Shown here piece by piece: positions 8,220 to 14,781 of a DNA stretch of 64,000 nt. Numbering within the stretch: position 1 is the first letter of the stretch; the number at the start of each line of letters is the position of its first letter. The DNA lies in contig NZ_CP117466.1 of the NCBI RefSeq assembly GCF_028621715.1, forward strand, positions 3,111,812 through 3,175,811, in the 5' to 3' direction. The stretch comes from Paracoccus marcusii. Lineage in GTDB: Bacteria > Pseudomonadota > Alphaproteobacteria > Rhodobacterales > Rhodobacteraceae. A program made the position numbers and the translations under genes. A model generated the notes under the pieces. The model was given only the letters and a program-made list of their open reading frames with translations, had not been told where the DNA came from and did not search any database.

Positions 8220-8347
8220 CGGACGCGACAATACCTGCATGTTCATAGGATATACTTGACATAAATAATAAACAATAATAACCCACGCCTTGCCAGCATC
8301 TGCCAGCCTCGTGATCCCACGGCCCATGGCCGCACTCCGAGGCGCAG
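8220..8347 (+). promoter_or_regulatory. AT-rich upstream region of the siderophore operon
   Basis: Spacer between the che operon and asbA. Bases 8241-8282 are about four-fifths A/T in an otherwise very GC-rich neighbourhood. A TTGACA hexamer at 8256-8261 is a plausible -35 element. The sequence 17 bases on (TAACCC at 8279) is a poor -10, so the pair is tentative. Iron-responsive control by Fur, Irr or RirA would be expected for a siderophore operon, but I do not see a clean palindrome for any of them. Confidence 0.4.
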
Positions 8348-10048
8348 ATGACCTTTTCCGACCCGTGCCTGTTGGCTGTCCGACATCCTGACCAAGCAGG
8401 TCCGGGGGCCGGCACCCTGCCCGATCCTTGCCCTGCGTCTGACGCGCAGGGCATCGCCGATCTGGCCAGCCTGCGCGCGCTGCTGATCTGCGACAGACGC
8501 GAGCTGGGCGGCGGGTGCGATCTGGTCCCGGTCGCCGGCGGCTGGCTGGAGGTCGTGACCGATGCGCCGATGGCATCGGGCCTGCCGCGTATCCGCGGGC
8601 TGATCCGGCACGGGCCGGACGGATCGCGCCCCATCGACCCGGACCTGGCGCTGTCGTTGATCCTGGACCGACTGACAGGCGATCACGGACCTGCAGGCGC
8701 CGCCTTGGCCCGCCGCGTGCAGGCCAGCCGTCATCGGATCGCCACGATCTGCGGACAGCGCCTGGCGCGGCCGCACCCCGCACCCGACTGGTTGACCGCC
8801 GAACAGGCGGTGATCTTCGGCCACTGGATGCATCCCTGCCCCAAGGCGTTGTCCGGCATGTCCCTGCCCGAGGAACGCGCGATGACCCCCGACTGGTGCG
8901 GCGCGTTGCACCTTGTCGGCCTGTCGGTCCGCAAAGACCTGATCGCAGGCACCGACCCTGACCGTGCGCGCGATCTGCCGGGCATGGATCTGGACCCCGG
9001 TCCCGGACGCATCCTGCTGCCCGCGCATCCGCTGACCTGGGACCGCGCCCGCCGCGATCCGGCCATCGCCGCGCTGCTGTCGCAGGGCGCCATCCGCGAA
9101 CTTGGCCCGGTGGGACCGGCATGGTGGGCGACATCCTCGGTGCGGACGTTGTGGCGCGGCGACAGCCCGTGGCAGGTCAAGGTGTCGCTGCCGGTCACCA
9201 TCACCAACTCGCAGCGCGTGAACAAGCGTCACGAACTGCTGGCGGGCGCGGCGATGTCGGCCCGCATCGGCGCGCTGCAGGGGCGGTTCGGGCGGCTGCG
9301 GTTGATCGACGACCCGCATTGGCTGACCCTGGCCCTGCCCGGTCGCATCGAATCCGGGCTGGAGGTGATCCTGCGCCGCAACCCGTGGCGCGGGGGACGC
9401 GGGGGGCAGGTGATGCAGGTCGCGGGCCTGGTCGCCGAACCTCTGCCGGGACGGCCGTCGATGCTGGCGCAGGTCATGGCGGGGCACGACCCGGCCGCCT
9501 GGTTCGACGCCTATCTGGACTGCACCGTCGCCCCCCTGCTGCGCCTGTATGACGCCACCGGCATCGCGGTCGAGGCACATCAGCAGAACGCCCTGCTGGA
9601 CCTCTCCCAAGGTCTGCCGCGCCGCTGCGACATCCGCGACAACCAGGGCTTCTATGTGGCCGACGACATGGCCTGCGCCACGCTGCGCGCCATTCCCAAC
9701 CTGTTCTATCCGCGCGCCGAGGCAGAGGACGCCCTGACCTATTCGCTGATCGTGAACCAGGTGTTTGGCGTGATCCACCGCATGGCGCTGGACGGGATCT
9801 GGCCAGAGCGGCGGGCGCTATCCGCGCTGGCAGCCCATCTTGGCGGTCTGACCCGCCTGCCGGGTCATGGCGGCCCCTTGGCCCGCCGTTGGCTGACGCA
9901 GCCGCATCTGCCCGCCAAAGGCAATCTGCTGACCCAGTTGGGCGGTGTGGACGAACTGCTGATCCCCGGGGAACGCGCACCCATGATCCGCGTGCCAAAC
10001 CCCCTGCCCGCGCTGGCCCATGCCGGGATGCTGTCCGATGTCGCCTGA
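8348..10048 (+). CDS. asbA: AsbA-like NIS siderophore synthetase (IucA/IucC family)
   Basis: NRPS-independent siderophore synthetase. By analogy with petrobactin AsbA it should adenylate citrate and join it to spermidine. The 566 residues include GHWMHPCPK (158-166), the HP block LLPAHPLTWDRARRDP, the ATP/substrate segment VKVSLPVTITNSQRVNK, and the family hallmark EAHQQN (409-414), followed by RDNQGFYV. The C-terminal FhuF-like part is present. AsbA of Bacillus is about 600 residues, so this is slightly short but intact. The GHxxHPxPK form fits the AsbA side of the family better than the AsbB side. It is the first gene of a four-gene coupled operon; its stop overlaps the next start by 11 bases. 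Confidence 0.92.
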   Translation: MTFSDPCLLAVRHPDQAGPGAGTLPDPCPASDAQGIADLASLRALLICDRRELGGGCDLVPVAGGWLEVVTDAPMASGLPRIRGLIRHGPDGSRPIDPDLALSLILDRLTGDHGPAGAALARRVQASRHRIATICGQRLARPHPAPDWLTAEQAVIFGHWMHPCPKALSGMSLPEERAMTPDWCGALHLVGLSVRKDLIAGTDPDRARDLPGMDLDPGPGRILLPAHPLTWDRARRDPAIAALLSQGAIRELGPVGPAWWATSSVRTLWRGDSPWQVKVSLPVTITNSQRVNKRHELLAGAAMSARIGALQGRFGRLRLIDDPHWLTLALPGRIESGLEVILRRNPWRGGRGGQVMQVAGLVAEPLPGRPSMLAQVMAGHDPAAWFDAYLDCTVAPLLRLYDATGIAVEAHQQNALLDLSQGLPRRCDIRDNQGFYVADDMACATLRAIPNLFYPRAEAEDALTYSLIVNQVFGVIHRMALDGIWPERRALSALAAHLGGLTRLPGHGGPLARRWLTQPHLPAKGNLLTQLGGVDELLIPGERAPMIRVPNPLPALAHAGMLSDVA

Positions 10049-12755
10049 GACCCGCGCCCTGCGCCAGACGATAGAGGCTCTGGCGTTCGAACGCATCCTG
10101 CGCCCGGCGCAGGGCGGCTGGACAGTGGGCGGCCTGGCCATCCGGGCGCCATATCGCCTGCAGGCCAGCGGCCGTGTCAGGCTGTTGGACGACCCGCGCG
10201 ATGCCACCGGCGGATTGCTGAAACCGGACGACCTGGAACGCGCGCTGGCCAGGGCCGGCCACGATCCCGCGGCGCTGATGACCGCCATGCGGCGCAGCGC
10301 GCATTTCCTGCGCGCGGCGGGGCCGGTTCGCGACAACCGCCTGTCGCTGACCGGCCCGGCGCTGGAGGCGAGCCTGATCGAGGGGCATCCGTATCATCCC
10401 GGCTTCAAGTCCCGCGCCGGGTTTTCGGACACTGACAATGCCGCCTTCGGCCCCGAAGGCGGCAGGACCATCGTGCCGGTCTGGCTATCGGTCGACCCCG
10501 CAATCGTGACGCGTGCAGGAACGGACCCCGCGCAGGGCTGGGCGCCGCCGGGGGCCATCCCGGTCCACCCGTGGCAGTGGCGGCGCCTGCAACGTGACCC
10601 GGCGGTGCAGGCGCTGATGGCGCGCGGGGCCTTGAAGGTGCTGCCGGCGGAGGGGCCGCGGATGCAGGCCACGGCGTCGCTGCGGACATTGGCCGCCTGC
10701 GACGGGGGCGATCACCTGAAGCTGTCGCTTAGCGTGGGGGTGACCTCCTCGGTCCGCGACCTGATGCCGTGGTCGGTGGCGGTGGCGCCGGCCATATCGG
10801 ACTGGCTGGAACGCGTGGTGGCGTCCGATCGGCACCTGGCCGGGCTGACGATCCTCCCGGAACATGGCGCGGCCATCGTCGCACGCAAGCTGCTGGGCGG
10901 CAGGCTGGCTGCGATCCGGCGCAGCCCCCCGCCCCCAGGTGCCATGCCCCTGTCGGCCCTGTCGCTGACCCAGCCGGACGGGCGCGCACTGATCGCGCCC
11001 TGGCTGGCCGCGCATGGCACCCAGGCGTGGACCGCGCGGCTGCTGACGATCCTGCAGCCCGTCTGGCGCCTGATGACCCATCACGGGATCGCGCTGGAGG
11101 CGCATGGCCAGAACCTGCTGATCACCCATGACGGCGGCTGGCCGACCGGGCTGGTGGCCCGCGATTTCAGCGAAAGCCTGGAGTACCTGCCGGACCGGCT
11201 GAGCCTGGCCGCCCCCGACCTTGCGGCCATCGAACCGGCGATGGCGGGGGCACCGGACGGCACCTATCACCGCATGGGCCGGGCCACCGACCTGCGCGAT
11301 CTGGTCGCCGACTGTCTGGTTACCCACGTGCTGTCGGATCTGGCGGATCTGCTGCACCGCACCGGCCATCTGTCCGAAGCGATCTTCTGGCGGCTGGCCC
11401 GCGCCGCCCTGCCCCATGCCCCCAGCCTGCGCACCGACGCCGCGACGGTTCCGGCGGAGAGCTTGGCCGCGGGGCTGCTGGGCCGCACCGAAACCCACCC
11501 TGCGCCGAACCCGCTGAAGGAGCCCGCCATGACCCGCCTGTTCCACCTGAACGACACGCTGATCGATCCGTTCGGCCCGGACGCCCCCGACCTGCTGGCC
11601 GGCCGCGACCCCGAACGCACGCGCATCGCACTGTTGATGACTGACCGCGCGGCATGCCTGACGCAGATCCTGCGCCTGCGGGATGCGGGCGCGTCCTGTC
11701 ATCCGATCCACCCGGAAACGCCCCCCGATCAGGCGCACGATCTGGCAAGGCGGGCGGGCTGCGACCTGATGATGACCGATGCGGGTCTGCAGGGGTTGGG
11801 ACAGGATGCGCCGCATGCGCCGGGTGGGGTGCTGATCCAGACCAGTTCGGGCACCACCGGCGCACCCAAGATCATCGCCCGCAGTTGGGCCGCCATCCAG
11901 ACCGAGATCGACGCCTATCTGCAGGCCTTTTCGCAGGCGGTCGGGATGACGCCGGTCATCGCAGCCCCGATCACCCATTCCTATGGACTGATCGCCGGTG
12001 TGCTTGTCGGACAGGCTCGGGGACATGCTCCGGTGGTGCTGAACCACGCCAACCCGCGCGCCATCCTGCGCCAGCTGGCCCGGATCCGCGATCCGCTGAT
12101 CTATGCCGCACCGCCGCTGCTGCATGTGCTGGCGCGGTTGGCCGGGGCGCAGGGGCTGCACGCGGTGATGTCGTCGGGGACTGTGCTGCCGCAGCCGTGG
12201 TTTGACGCGATCCGCTGCGCGGCGCGCCACTTGTTCCAGCAGTACGGCTGTTCCGAGGCGGGATGCCTGGCCATCGCGCAGAACCCCGACCGGCCCGAGG
12301 ATATGGGCCTGCCCCTGCCGCATGTCCGCCTGCAGGCCGGACGGGACGCACCCGGCCCCGTCTCCGTCCATGCCGCAGGCGCGACGGTGCAGACCGGCGA
12401 TCTGGGCGTGATCGACGCCCGCGGCCACCTGATCTTTGCCGGGCGCCAGGCCGAGGTGATCGATGTCGCGGGCCTGAACGTCTATCCCGCCCATATCGAG
12501 GCCGCGGCCCTGAGCCTGCCGGGCATCATCGACGCGGTGGCATTCGCCGTCCCGGACCCCGTCGCGCATCAGCGCCCCGCGCTTGCCTATGCCGGCGACA
12601 TCGCCGAGGCGCCGCTGGACGCCCATCTGGCGGCGCTGCTGTCGCCACGCCAGCGGCCGGTGCGTCTGGTCCGCCTGCCCGCCCTGCCGCGTGGTGCGAA
12701 CGGCAAGATCGCCCGCCGCGCCCTTGCCGAAACCCTGTCGGAGGCCCCCGCATGA
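10038..12755 (+). CDS. asbB-asbC: AsbB-AsbC fusion: NIS synthetase joined to a 3,4-dihydroxybenzoate-AMP ligase
   Basis: One 905-residue frame combining two petrobactin enzymes. Residues 1-497 are a second IucA/IucC synthetase with GHPYHPGFK (116-124), IPVHPWQWRRL, LKLSLSVGVTSSVRD and EAHGQN (354-359). It ends in NPL, as many free NIS enzymes do. Residues 498-905 are an adenylating ligase with the P-loop TSSGTTGAPK (602-611), QYGCSEAG, TGDLGVID and a C-terminal ANGKIARR lysine. They match AsbC, which loads the catecholate acid onto the AsbD carrier. At the joint, an AAGGAG (11517-11522) and an in-frame ATG (11529) form an excellent ribosome site, so free AsbC may also be made. The start at 10038 overlaps asbA; an ATG at 10020 is also possible. 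Confidence 0.9.
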   Translation: MSPETRALRQTIEALAFERILRPAQGGWTVGGLAIRAPYRLQASGRVRLLDDPRDATGGLLKPDDLERALARAGHDPAALMTAMRRSAHFLRAAGPVRDNRLSLTGPALEASLIEGHPYHPGFKSRAGFSDTDNAAFGPEGGRTIVPVWLSVDPAIVTRAGTDPAQGWAPPGAIPVHPWQWRRLQRDPAVQALMARGALKVLPAEGPRMQATASLRTLAACDGGDHLKLSLSVGVTSSVRDLMPWSVAVAPAISDWLERVVASDRHLAGLTILPEHGAAIVARKLLGGRLAAIRRSPPPPGAMPLSALSLTQPDGRALIAPWLAAHGTQAWTARLLTILQPVWRLMTHHGIALEAHGQNLLITHDGGWPTGLVARDFSESLEYLPDRLSLAAPDLAAIEPAMAGAPDGTYHRMGRATDLRDLVADCLVTHVLSDLADLLHRTGHLSEAIFWRLARAALPHAPSLRTDAATVPAESLAAGLLGRTETHPAPNPLKEPAMTRLFHLNDTLIDPFGPDAPDLLAGRDPERTRIALLMTDRAACLTQILRLRDAGASCHPIHPETPPDQAHDLARRAGCDLMMTDAGLQGLGQDAPHAPGGVLIQTSSGTTGAPKIIARSWAAIQTEIDAYLQAFSQAVGMTPVIAAPITHSYGLIAGVLVGQARGHAPVVLNHANPRAILRQLARIRDPLIYAAPPLLHVLARLAGAQGLHAVMSSGTVLPQPWFDAIRCAARHLFQQYGCSEAGCLAIAQNPDRPEDMGLPLPHVRLQAGRDAPGPVSVHAAGATVQTGDLGVIDARGHLIFAGRQAEVIDVAGLNVYPAHIEAAALSLPGIIDAVAFAVPDPVAHQRPALAYAGDIAEAPLDAHLAALLSPRQRPVRLVRLPALPRGANGKIARRALAETLSEAPA
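11517..11531 (+). promoter_or_regulatory. Internal ribosome-binding site and start codon at the AsbB/AsbC junction
   Basis: AAGGAG followed six bases later by ATG lies inside the continuous asbBC frame, exactly where the ligase domain begins (MTRLFHLNDT). Translation from this ATG would give a 408-residue protein, close to the length of stand-alone AsbC. It is either a relic of the separate gene or an active second start. Confidence 0.7.
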
Positions 12756-13984
12756 CCGACCCCCACCCCATCCCCGCCCCACAGGACATGCAGGACCGCA
12801 TCCGCGCGATCCTGGCCGGTCCGATGGCCTGCCCGCGCATGGCGGCCTTTGGTCCCGACGCGCGTCTTGGCCATGACCTGGGCTTGGATTCGGTCGCCCT
12901 GATGACGCTGATGCTGCACCTGGACGAGGCGGGCATCACCATGGCCGAGGATACGTTCGACCGCGCCCCCGGAATGACCGTGCAGGCGCTGTCGATGGCG
13001 CTGGCGGGCGTGACCCCCGCACCCGATGAACCTGTCGACATCAAGGTCCATTGCGTCGTCAGCTGCCTGTGCCAGGCGCTGAAGGACCGCGGCGGGATCG
13101 ACCACCGCCCGCTGTATCTGGGCCTGTGGGACGGGCAGGTGATCGTCGACGACAGGATGCGCCTGTCCTATCACGCGCCGGGGATCGATCACGGCTTCTA
13201 TCTGCATTGGGCTGGTCGCCTGTTCGGCCTGCAGGTGACGCGTTGGCATGAGGATGCCGCGCCGGGCGCGCGGAACCTGGACCACCTGCACGCGCTGCTG
13301 GCCGATTGGCGGCCCGGCCGCTACGTCATGCCGATGGTCGACATGGCGCTGCTGCCGCAACGCGACAACAAGTTCGCCCAGGCCAGCTTTCCCCACTATG
13401 CCCTGCTGGAGCCCACGGCGGACCCCGACACCTGGCTGATGCGCGACCCGGATTTCCGGTGGGAGGGGCCGCTGCCTGCCCGCGACCTGCGGGCGGCATT
13501 CCTGGCACCCACCGTGGCCGGGGGCTTCGCCTTCGACAATGCGGGCGCGCATCCCGCGGACGACGCGACCATCGCCGCGATGCACCACGCGACCTTCGAC
13601 GCGCAGGCCGTGCCGCTGATCGACGCGATCCGCCGCATCGTGCAGGCCCATGTCGCCGACCTGCCGCGCGCCGATCTGGAACCCGCGCTGCGCGAACTGC
13701 CGGTCATCGCGATCCGCAAATACGCCTATGAGCACGCGCTGGCGATCTTCGGCGACATCGAGGGCGCCGATCACGATGCGTTCGAGGAATGCTGCGACCG
13801 GATCGCGGCGCTGCATGGCGGGCTGAACGCGGCCCATCTGCGCGCGGTGGCCTTTGCCCGCGGCGGTGACTGCGACGATCTGCTGCAGGTGCTGGCCGAT
13901 CTGGACCGGCTGACCCTGCTGGAACGGGGCATCAAGGCCACCGTGGGCCAGTGGTTCGACCGCTGGCAGAGGGCGCGCGCATGA
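12752..13984 (+). CDS. asbD-asbE: AsbD-AsbE fusion: aryl carrier domain joined to a petrobactin acyltransferase
   Basis: 410-residue protein. Residues 14-87 are an acyl carrier domain with the phosphopantetheine site LGLDSVAL (Ser47) and family helices, matching AsbD. Residues 95-410 match AsbE (the DUF6005 type, as I recall), the enzyme that moves 3,4-dihydroxybenzoate from the carrier to spermidine. The conserved-looking block HCVVSCLC (100-107) could supply the active-site Cys. No start codon or ribosome site lies at the joint, unlike in the previous gene, so this is an obligate fusion. Its ATG overlaps the asbBC stop (ATGA), and its own TGA overlaps asbF. In Bacillus the two are separate proteins of roughly 90 and 330 residues. 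Confidence 0.87.
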   Translation: MTDPHPIPAPQDMQDRIRAILAGPMACPRMAAFGPDARLGHDLGLDSVALMTLMLHLDEAGITMAEDTFDRAPGMTVQALSMALAGVTPAPDEPVDIKVHCVVSCLCQALKDRGGIDHRPLYLGLWDGQVIVDDRMRLSYHAPGIDHGFYLHWAGRLFGLQVTRWHEDAAPGARNLDHLHALLADWRPGRYVMPMVDMALLPQRDNKFAQASFPHYALLEPTADPDTWLMRDPDFRWEGPLPARDLRAAFLAPTVAGGFAFDNAGAHPADDATIAAMHHATFDAQAVPLIDAIRRIVQAHVADLPRADLEPALRELPVIAIRKYAYEHALAIFGDIEGADHDAFEECCDRIAALHGGLNAAHLRAVAFARGGDCDDLLQVLADLDRLTLLERGIKATVGQWFDRWQRARA

Positions 13985-14781
13985 GGATCAATGCCTGTTC
14001 CGTGGCCTTCCGCCACCTGGACGTGACCGCCCGCGACCTCGCCCGCTATGTCGCCCGCGAGGGGTTCGACGGGCTGGAGGTCTGGGCCGCGCATGCCCGC
14101 GCGCTGGCCGTCGAATGGCGTGATCTGCCGCAGCGTCCCCCGGTGCCGATGCTGGCGGGCTATCTGCCCCTGGGCACTGCCGGTTTCAGCCGCGCCGACG
14201 CGGCCGACCTGCTGGACCTGACCCGGACCTGGGGCGCGCCACGGCTGCGGCTGTTCGCGGGGGGCGTGGGGCGCGATCAGGCGGGGGCGGACCAGCGCCG
14301 CGCGATCCTGCGCGACCTGGGCACGACGGCCGACATGGCCCATGACCGCGGCCTGCGCATCGCGGTCGAGACGCATCCGCAGACCCTGGCCGACAGCCTG
14401 CCCGCGACCTTGGACCTGCTGGATGCGCTGGACCATCCCGCGGTCGGCGTGAACTTCGACGTGCTGCATGTGTGGGAGTCGGGCGACGACCCCGTATCTG
14501 CAGTCGCCGCACTGCGCGAACATATCGAGCACCTGCACCTGAAATCCGTGACCGCGCGCGACCGCCTGTCGGTCTTTCACCCGGACAACGTCCACGATCC
14601 GCGCGGCAGCCGTGACGGCATGTGCCCGCTGCTGACGGGTGTCGTCGATTATGCGGCGTTCCTGCGCGCGGTGCCGGCGGGGATGGGTGCGTCGCTGGAA
14701 TGGTTCGGCCCAAAGCCCGCGGCGACCATGGCGGCCGATCTGCGCGCGTTGCGGCGGGACCTGCTGGACCGCGCGGCGTGA
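13981..14781 (+). CDS. asbF: AsbF-like 3-dehydroshikimate dehydratase
   Basis: TIM-barrel metalloenzyme of the sugar-phosphate isomerase superfamily. AsbF converts 3-dehydroshikimate to 3,4-dihydroxybenzoate, the catechol of petrobactin. The 266 residues keep the four expected metal ligands: Glu130 (AVETHPQTL), Asp160 (VNFDVLHVW), His186 (LHLKSV) and Glu240 (SLEWFGPK). The length is close to Bacillus AsbF (about 280). The start at 13981 overlaps the preceding TGA. As the last gene of the operon it completes a full six-function petrobactin set. A general xylose-isomerase-like role is the alternative, but context makes AsbF much more likely. Confidence 0.9.
   Translation: MRINACSVAFRHLDVTARDLARYVAREGFDGLEVWAAHARALAVEWRDLPQRPPVPMLAGYLPLGTAGFSRADAADLLDLTRTWGAPRLRLFAGGVGRDQAGADQRRAILRDLGTTADMAHDRGLRIAVETHPQTLADSLPATLDLLDALDHPAVGVNFDVLHVWESGDDPVSAVAALREHIEHLHLKSVTARDRLSVFHPDNVHDPRGSRDGMCPLLTGVVDYAAFLRAVPAGMGASLEWFGPKPAATMAADLRALRRDLLDRAA

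Follow-up and report, generated by a model that had tools for sequence, protein, structure and literature searches.

The window, by which we mean the whole analysed stretch of 64,000 nucleotides, carries at 8348-14781 four genes of Paracoccus marcusii that code for AsbA, an AsbB-AsbC fusion, an AsbD-AsbE fusion and AsbF. They are arranged in this order and in overlapping frames. The features are as follows.

8292..8308, + strand: direct repeat GCCAGCATCTGCCAGCC in the asbA leader; conserved in 14 of 17 Paracoccaceae-type leaders
8348..10048, + strand: asbA-like NIS synthetase gene; 566 aa; Pfam IucA_IucC 9e-38, FhuF 5e-30
10020..12755, + strand: asbBC fusion; 911 aa; both domains in a single open frame
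10020..11528, + strand: AsbB half (NIS synthetase); PDB AsbB 3TO3 2e-42; alternative start ATG 10038
11517..11531, + strand: candidate internal ribosome-binding site and start; AAGGAG, 6 bases, ATG at 11529; putative function
11529..12752, + strand: AsbC half (predicted aryl-AMP ligase); 408 aa; AMP-binding 9e-19
12752..13984, + strand: asbDE fusion; 410 aa; starts with ATG 12752
12752..13021, + strand: AsbD part (predicted aryl carrier); 90 aa; LGLDS motif by eye
13022..13984, + strand: AsbE part (DUF6005); Pfam 6.5e-114
13981..14781, + strand: asbF-like 3-dehydroshikimate dehydratase gene; 266 aa; ATG 13981; PDB AsbF 3DX5 1e-47

The start sites of asbDE and asbF form ATGA overlaps with the preceding stop codon. 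The starts given in the open reading frame listing (12263 for DE, 13951 for F) were set aside, as 12752 and 13981 fit the overlaps and the homologues better. The four overlapping frames described in an earlier note on this DNA were thus found as 8348-10048, 10020-12755, 12752-13984 and 13981-14781. A chemotaxis operon is located upstream of the cluster, and sspB-, dapA- and fumC-like genes follow downstream (names by eye); the sspB-like protein is without an NCBIfam match. Genes resembling ectA, ectB and ectC, again named by eye, are found about 12-16 kb upstream of asbA.

Identity and intactness of the asb genes

The earlier note had assigned all six functions of a petrobactin-type pathway in the order A to F, and this is borne out by domains, PDB matches and the clusters of relatives. 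Both NIS synthetases, one of AsbA type and one of AsbB type, are recognized by Pfam and PDB sequence matches: IucA_IucC and FhuF domains are present in A and also in the B half (3e-44 and 2e-20), the latter matching 3TO3. In the P. marcusii genome, which is one contig of 3.18 Mb, A and B are the only two places with an IucA_IucC domain. The A protein matches that of P. marcusii CGMCC 1.8602 (L044) at 97%.

The C half has an AMP-binding domain, scores below the cut-off of NCBIfam PRK08308 (378 of 513 bits) and sits among the C genes of asb loci in the tree; we predict it to be the aryl-AMP ligase AsbC, as had been proposed. The AsbD part scores below the cut-offs of both Pfam PP-binding (9e-4) and NCBIfam AsbD (28 of 100 bits); its position and length are as expected, an LGLDS motif is visible by eye and it is 58-98% identical to its relatives. 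The AsbE-like transferase is recognized by its DUF6005 domain. AsbF aligns with 3DX5 such that four E/D/H/E positions, which we take to be the metal ligands of AsbF, are identical, and the dehydratase with four ligand positions therefore stands. The best matches of the AsbC, AsbE and AsbF parts did not fall outside petrobactin loci.

Across the six domains, dN/dS against four relatives is 0.11-0.49, and the asb genes of the window are under purifying selection. These values, together with unbroken frames in both the window and CGMCC 1.8602, argue against decay or disuse of the locus in the P. marcusii group, which we consider highly improbable. Decay might be read from a receptor that is unlinked from the cluster (see below), from frame breaks in Paracoccus sp. 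PAMC 22219 and P. beibuensis, and from P. aestuarii, where asbA is in two pieces and asbF was not found, but these breaks belong to draft genomes or to other species. The P. marcusii locus is a real and intact four-gene representative of the petrobactin-type family, of a kind that is known and partly in print.

On the P. aestuarii plasmid NZ_CP067170.1 (L012 10706-16221), asbA is annotated as two overlapping CDS and nadC occupies the place of asbF, which is absent beside the cluster and was not found in the genome (G679). In P. beibuensis (L055 6799-8501), a gap between the matched pieces takes in the 3' part of asbA and the 5' part of asbB, and looks like a deletion or an assembly error. Paracoccus sp. 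PAMC 22219 (L050 209-4962) shows frame changes inside B, F and the neighbouring dapA-like gene; this is a draft contig and sequencing errors are possible. Three queries at 1e-3 gave no asbF match in the fetched stretches of L061, L104, L112, L119 and L127.

Comparison with described clusters

An A-BC-DE-F layout has been described before as mllA-mllBC-mllDE-mllF of Methylorubrum extorquens, and the consulted parts of PMC11317620 and PMC13251462 indicate the identical four genes with B-C and D-E fused. The B-C fusion of the window differs from that of mll in being of separate origin, judged by Methylobacterium sp. Leaf108 as a stand-in. The condensed architecture had been called unusual by the earlier note. 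This does not apply to the layout as such, which equals that published for mll and includes a common D-E fusion, but it does apply to the B-C fusion, which is rare (17 of the best 80 loci).

The cluster also resembles the roseobactin-type locus of Phaeobacter inhibens (pPGA1_78, L014), where A to F occur in order and D-E are fused, and the nearest well-supported relatives of the C half in the tree belong to this type. In P. inhibens, however, B and C are separate and a receptor and an ABC importer are adjacent. That this is the roseobactin locus we infer from the accessible text of PMC11317620 and not from its record. The same six functions in the same order are found in Bacillus asbABCDEF, there as six separate genes. 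Among the open-licence papers found on petrobactin and Paracoccus or on fused asbB/asbC, we saw no mention of B-C or D-E fusions in Paracoccus.

antiSMASH adds 5 kb on either side of the core genes. For asbA and asbBC (4.4 kb), 5 kb on each side result in 14.4 kb with about 14 genes in the window. The siderophore cluster of P. marcusii CP157 is given as 14.4 kb with 14 loci beside an ectoine cluster (PMC8273931, in the sections consulted). Same species, matching cluster size and the ectoine neighbour make it very probable that the reported asbABEF genes represent the same locus. The report, as far as its available text goes, states that neither antiSMASH nor a direct BLAST search detected asbCD, and suggests the acyl-carrier protein gene CP157_00999 as a stand-in (PMC8273931). 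In contrast, asbC and asbD are present in the window as halves of BC and DE, and they would have escaped detection in CP157 because they are hidden as halves of two fusions; CP157_00999 is probably the DE gene. In this way, the gap in print, with P. marcusii said to be without asbC and asbD, is filled and newly explained. Siderophore production by CP157 is cited there as a private communication (PMC8273931), and a hybrid ectoine/NI-siderophore cluster is mentioned for two other P. marcusii strains in the part of PMC13036509 consulted.

Occurrence and origin of the asbB-asbC fusion

DUF6005 (AsbE) occurs in 2 of 295 genomes sampled from the family, 3 of 385 sampled from the class and 16 of 125 of the genus, with the genome of the window included each time. 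An AsbE relative is encoded on 299 stretches, of which the best 80 loci were retained and counted. B and C are in one open frame in 17 of these 80: in all 16 Paracoccaceae-type loci (L049-L064), from Paracoccus, Pararhodobacter, Cereibacter, a Rhodobacter and a Gemmobacter MAG, and in Methylobacterium sp. Leaf108 (L073). In two of the 16 (L050, L055), B is disrupted further upstream. L052 (P. sediminilitoris), a candidate for an unfused case, was counted as fused since the stop precedes the likely start of B. L082 (Chenggangzhangella) was not counted: the end of B and C share a frame there, but B itself is frame-broken. D and E are fused in every alphaproteobacterial locus listed and are separate in the listed Bacillota loci.

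Within the genus set, B and C share a frame in 15 of 16 clusters, that of the window included; the exception, G707 (L041), is of a divergent unfused type. The L041 cluster is 38-47% identical to the parts of the window.

In the trees of C (47 rows) and B (39 rows), the Paracoccaceae-type rows form one fully supported clade. It is nested in a larger clade with unfused Roseobacter-type genes (support 100/99 for C and 92/99 for B, the latter falling below the starred support level). L073 groups with Methylobacterium and other Hyphomicrobiales. In AU tests, which were performed after the first tree had been seen, a single clade of Paracoccaceae and L073 is rejected (p 1.6e-8 for C, 4.1e-4 for B). 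A clade of L082 and L073 is likewise rejected (p 0.0021), as is, with weaker rejection, one of L082 and Paracoccaceae (p 0.0115). The trees comprise 47, 41 and 39 rows out of 88 loci with most Bacillota excluded; L058 and L127 (stop in the stretch taken) are left out of the C trees and L050, L052, L055 and L082, among others, of the B tree. With L073 representing Methylobacteriaceae as a stand-in for M. extorquens mllBC, the fusion of B and C has two separate origins, one in Paracoccaceae and one in Methylobacteriaceae, which looks new.

In the unfused relatives L065, L066 and L070, B and C occupy the same frame and a stop stands two codons ahead of the ATG of C, so that loss of such a stop would yield the fusion. 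We place the origin of the fusion in the ancestor of this Paracoccaceae gene family, where the stop separating the two adjacent genes was probably lost.

A start codon at the B-C junction

In 18 Paracoccaceae-type sequences, a short stretch of variable sequence separates the B tail (NPL or NPI) from a start codon, which is kept in 18 of 18 genes (16 ATG, 2 GTG). In 14 of the 18, this codon has a Shine-Dalgarno-like match of 4 bases or more in front of it; among the other start-type codons in frame within these genes, 0-15% have such a match. In the window, AAGGAG six bases before the junction ATG is, by eye, the best motif among the starts of the operon. At the D-E junction (18 rows), there is no common start codon, with 7 of 18 rows lacking any in the 18 codons scanned.

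The Shine-Dalgarno sum over the 18 rows, which are related and in six of which the junction start was placed manually with an offset of one to three codons, is 76 as compared to 55.1 (sd 4.3) in synonymous redraws, and none of 5000 draws is as high. For 13 thinned rows, the sum is 54 versus 35.4, again with 0 of 5000 as high. The excess rests on seven rows (L052, L053, L054, L056, L057, L060, L061), with single-row P of 0.001-0.052. As a control, 29 alignment columns with at least 8 start-type codons, i.e. the junction and 28 others, were compared in 15 sequences (L050, L052 and L055 excluded): the junction has z 4.9, with at least 4 bases matched in 11 of 15, and the next-best column has 2.4.

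These data may be explained in two ways. One is that the start codon and the motif are unused leftovers of an unfused ancestor, with BC made only as one polypeptide. To this account, which has a slightly better than even chance, belong a strong motif at the same place in unfused relatives, the 11 of 18 rows, the window's included, in which the amino acids alone account for the strength of the motif, and the relatedness of the rows with their six hand-chosen offsets. The sums that no redraw reached and the z of the junction column, however, speak against this account. They would fit the other explanation, that asbBC of Paracoccaceae is a nested gene that gives the fusion and, from a kept internal ribosome-binding site, a free AsbC; we put this forward tentatively, at somewhat less than even odds. 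In a structure model of BC (14 sequences, mean pLDDT 73.7, pTM 0.60), residues 497-507 around Met504 are without helix or strand, from which it would follow that a free C half could fold. The putative kept internal start would be new, and is the boldest and least proven of our new points.

The repeat in the asbA leader

The leader repeat follows the pattern GCCAGC-N4(5)-GCCAGC with one base free to vary, for which about 0.02 occurrences are expected per 320 bases. It was found in none of 12 other loci (11 unfused loci and L073). By eye, it lies after an AT-rich, promoter-like TTGAC stretch. Genome-wide, the repeat occurs at five places; of the four others, the one inspected, at 1039917, looks coding. 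No regulon emerged from this search. A wider-spaced GCCAGC..GCCAGCC is seen by eye before the unlinked receptor gene of P. marcusii and P. beibuensis.

Uptake genes and the likely product

A receptor like that of the Phaeobacter locus is found beside asbF in 7 of 15 fused-type Paracoccus clusters. In the genome of the window, a homologous receptor, sharing 72% identity with its P. beibuensis counterpart, is encoded at 151-153 kb. In G721, G748, G727 and G708, the homologue (68-76%) is on a different contig from the cluster, with one in-frame stop in the match of G708; in G679 (P. aestuarii), it was not found in the genome. Among NCBIfam models, those for heme-receptor subfamilies give the unlinked receptor its highest score (159 of 324 bits, below cut-off; siderophore model 71 of 224), a point against its assignment to the siderophore. 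The sole other Plug-domain receptor in the genome resembles CirA/IreA, also below the NCBIfam cut-off.

At 611 kb, the genome codes for a FatB-like binding protein that shares 53%, 48% and 41% identity with the asb-adjacent ones of Neorhizobium, Phaeobacter and Aureimonas, respectively; two FecCD permeases and an ABC ATPase come next (importer at 611-615 kb). This importer converges with tonB-exbD-exbB (611-618 kb; L147 5478-12170), placing the inner-membrane uptake and energy modules together. On a circular chromosome, its distance to the asb cluster would be about 0.67 Mb.

The genome also codes for nspC (412.9 bits, cut-off 409.05) with an adjoining Sacchrp_dh_C gene at 556-559 kb. The two genes suggest a carboxyspermidine route, and hint at spermidine arms rather than acetylated homospermidine. 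PF16653 presumably also covers homospermidine synthase, which counts against fixing the polyamine as spermidine.

By analogy to known asb enzymology, from which the polyamine, the transport roles and any control by iron are likewise deduced, AsbF would convert dehydroshikimate to 3,4-dihydroxybenzoate. The AsbC half of BC would activate it and load the AsbD part of DE, and the AsbE part would transfer it to the polyamine. AsbA and the AsbB half would then attach two such arms to citrate. Petrobactin itself consists of two 3,4-DHB, two spermidines and one citrate. The product would be exported and taken up again by the unlinked TonB receptor and the FatB-like ABC importer. Given the unlinked receptor, the importer, TonB-ExbB-ExbD and the likely carboxyspermidine route, we consider it likely (about 80%) that the pathway is a complete petrobactin-type one with petrobactin or a close spermidine analogue as product. 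The rhodopetrobactin B that M. extorquens PA1 forms with this gene layout, and the siderophore production cited for CP157, also speak for it.

A rhodopetrobactin- or methylolanthanin-like product, having acetylated homospermidine arms with 3,4-DHB or 4-HB and perhaps also binding lanthanides, is unlikely. The four-gene layout does match mll, and the rhodopetrobactin B of M. extorquens PA1 contains two 3,4-DHB (methylolanthanin is not reported from it in the consulted part of PMC13251462). However, the B-C fusions are of separate origin, and nspC with its neighbouring dehydrogenase points to spermidine. In addition, the mll locus has receptor, sigma/anti-sigma (FecR) and DUF2218 genes next to it, and Phaeobacter and Azospirillum queries for such genes gave no tblastn match at 1e-8 in window positions 1-30000.

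With petrobactin or a close analogue as the likeliest product, the genes for siderophore synthesis, receptor and importer would be at three places of one chromosome. Gene-by-gene mining can overlook pathway parts inside fusions. That B and C were fused a second time, in Methylobacteriaceae, suggests an advantage in linking them. If the nested gene is true, one lost stop codon gave a two-product gene. For biosynthetic fusion genes that seemingly keep an internal start, asbBC provides a testable example.
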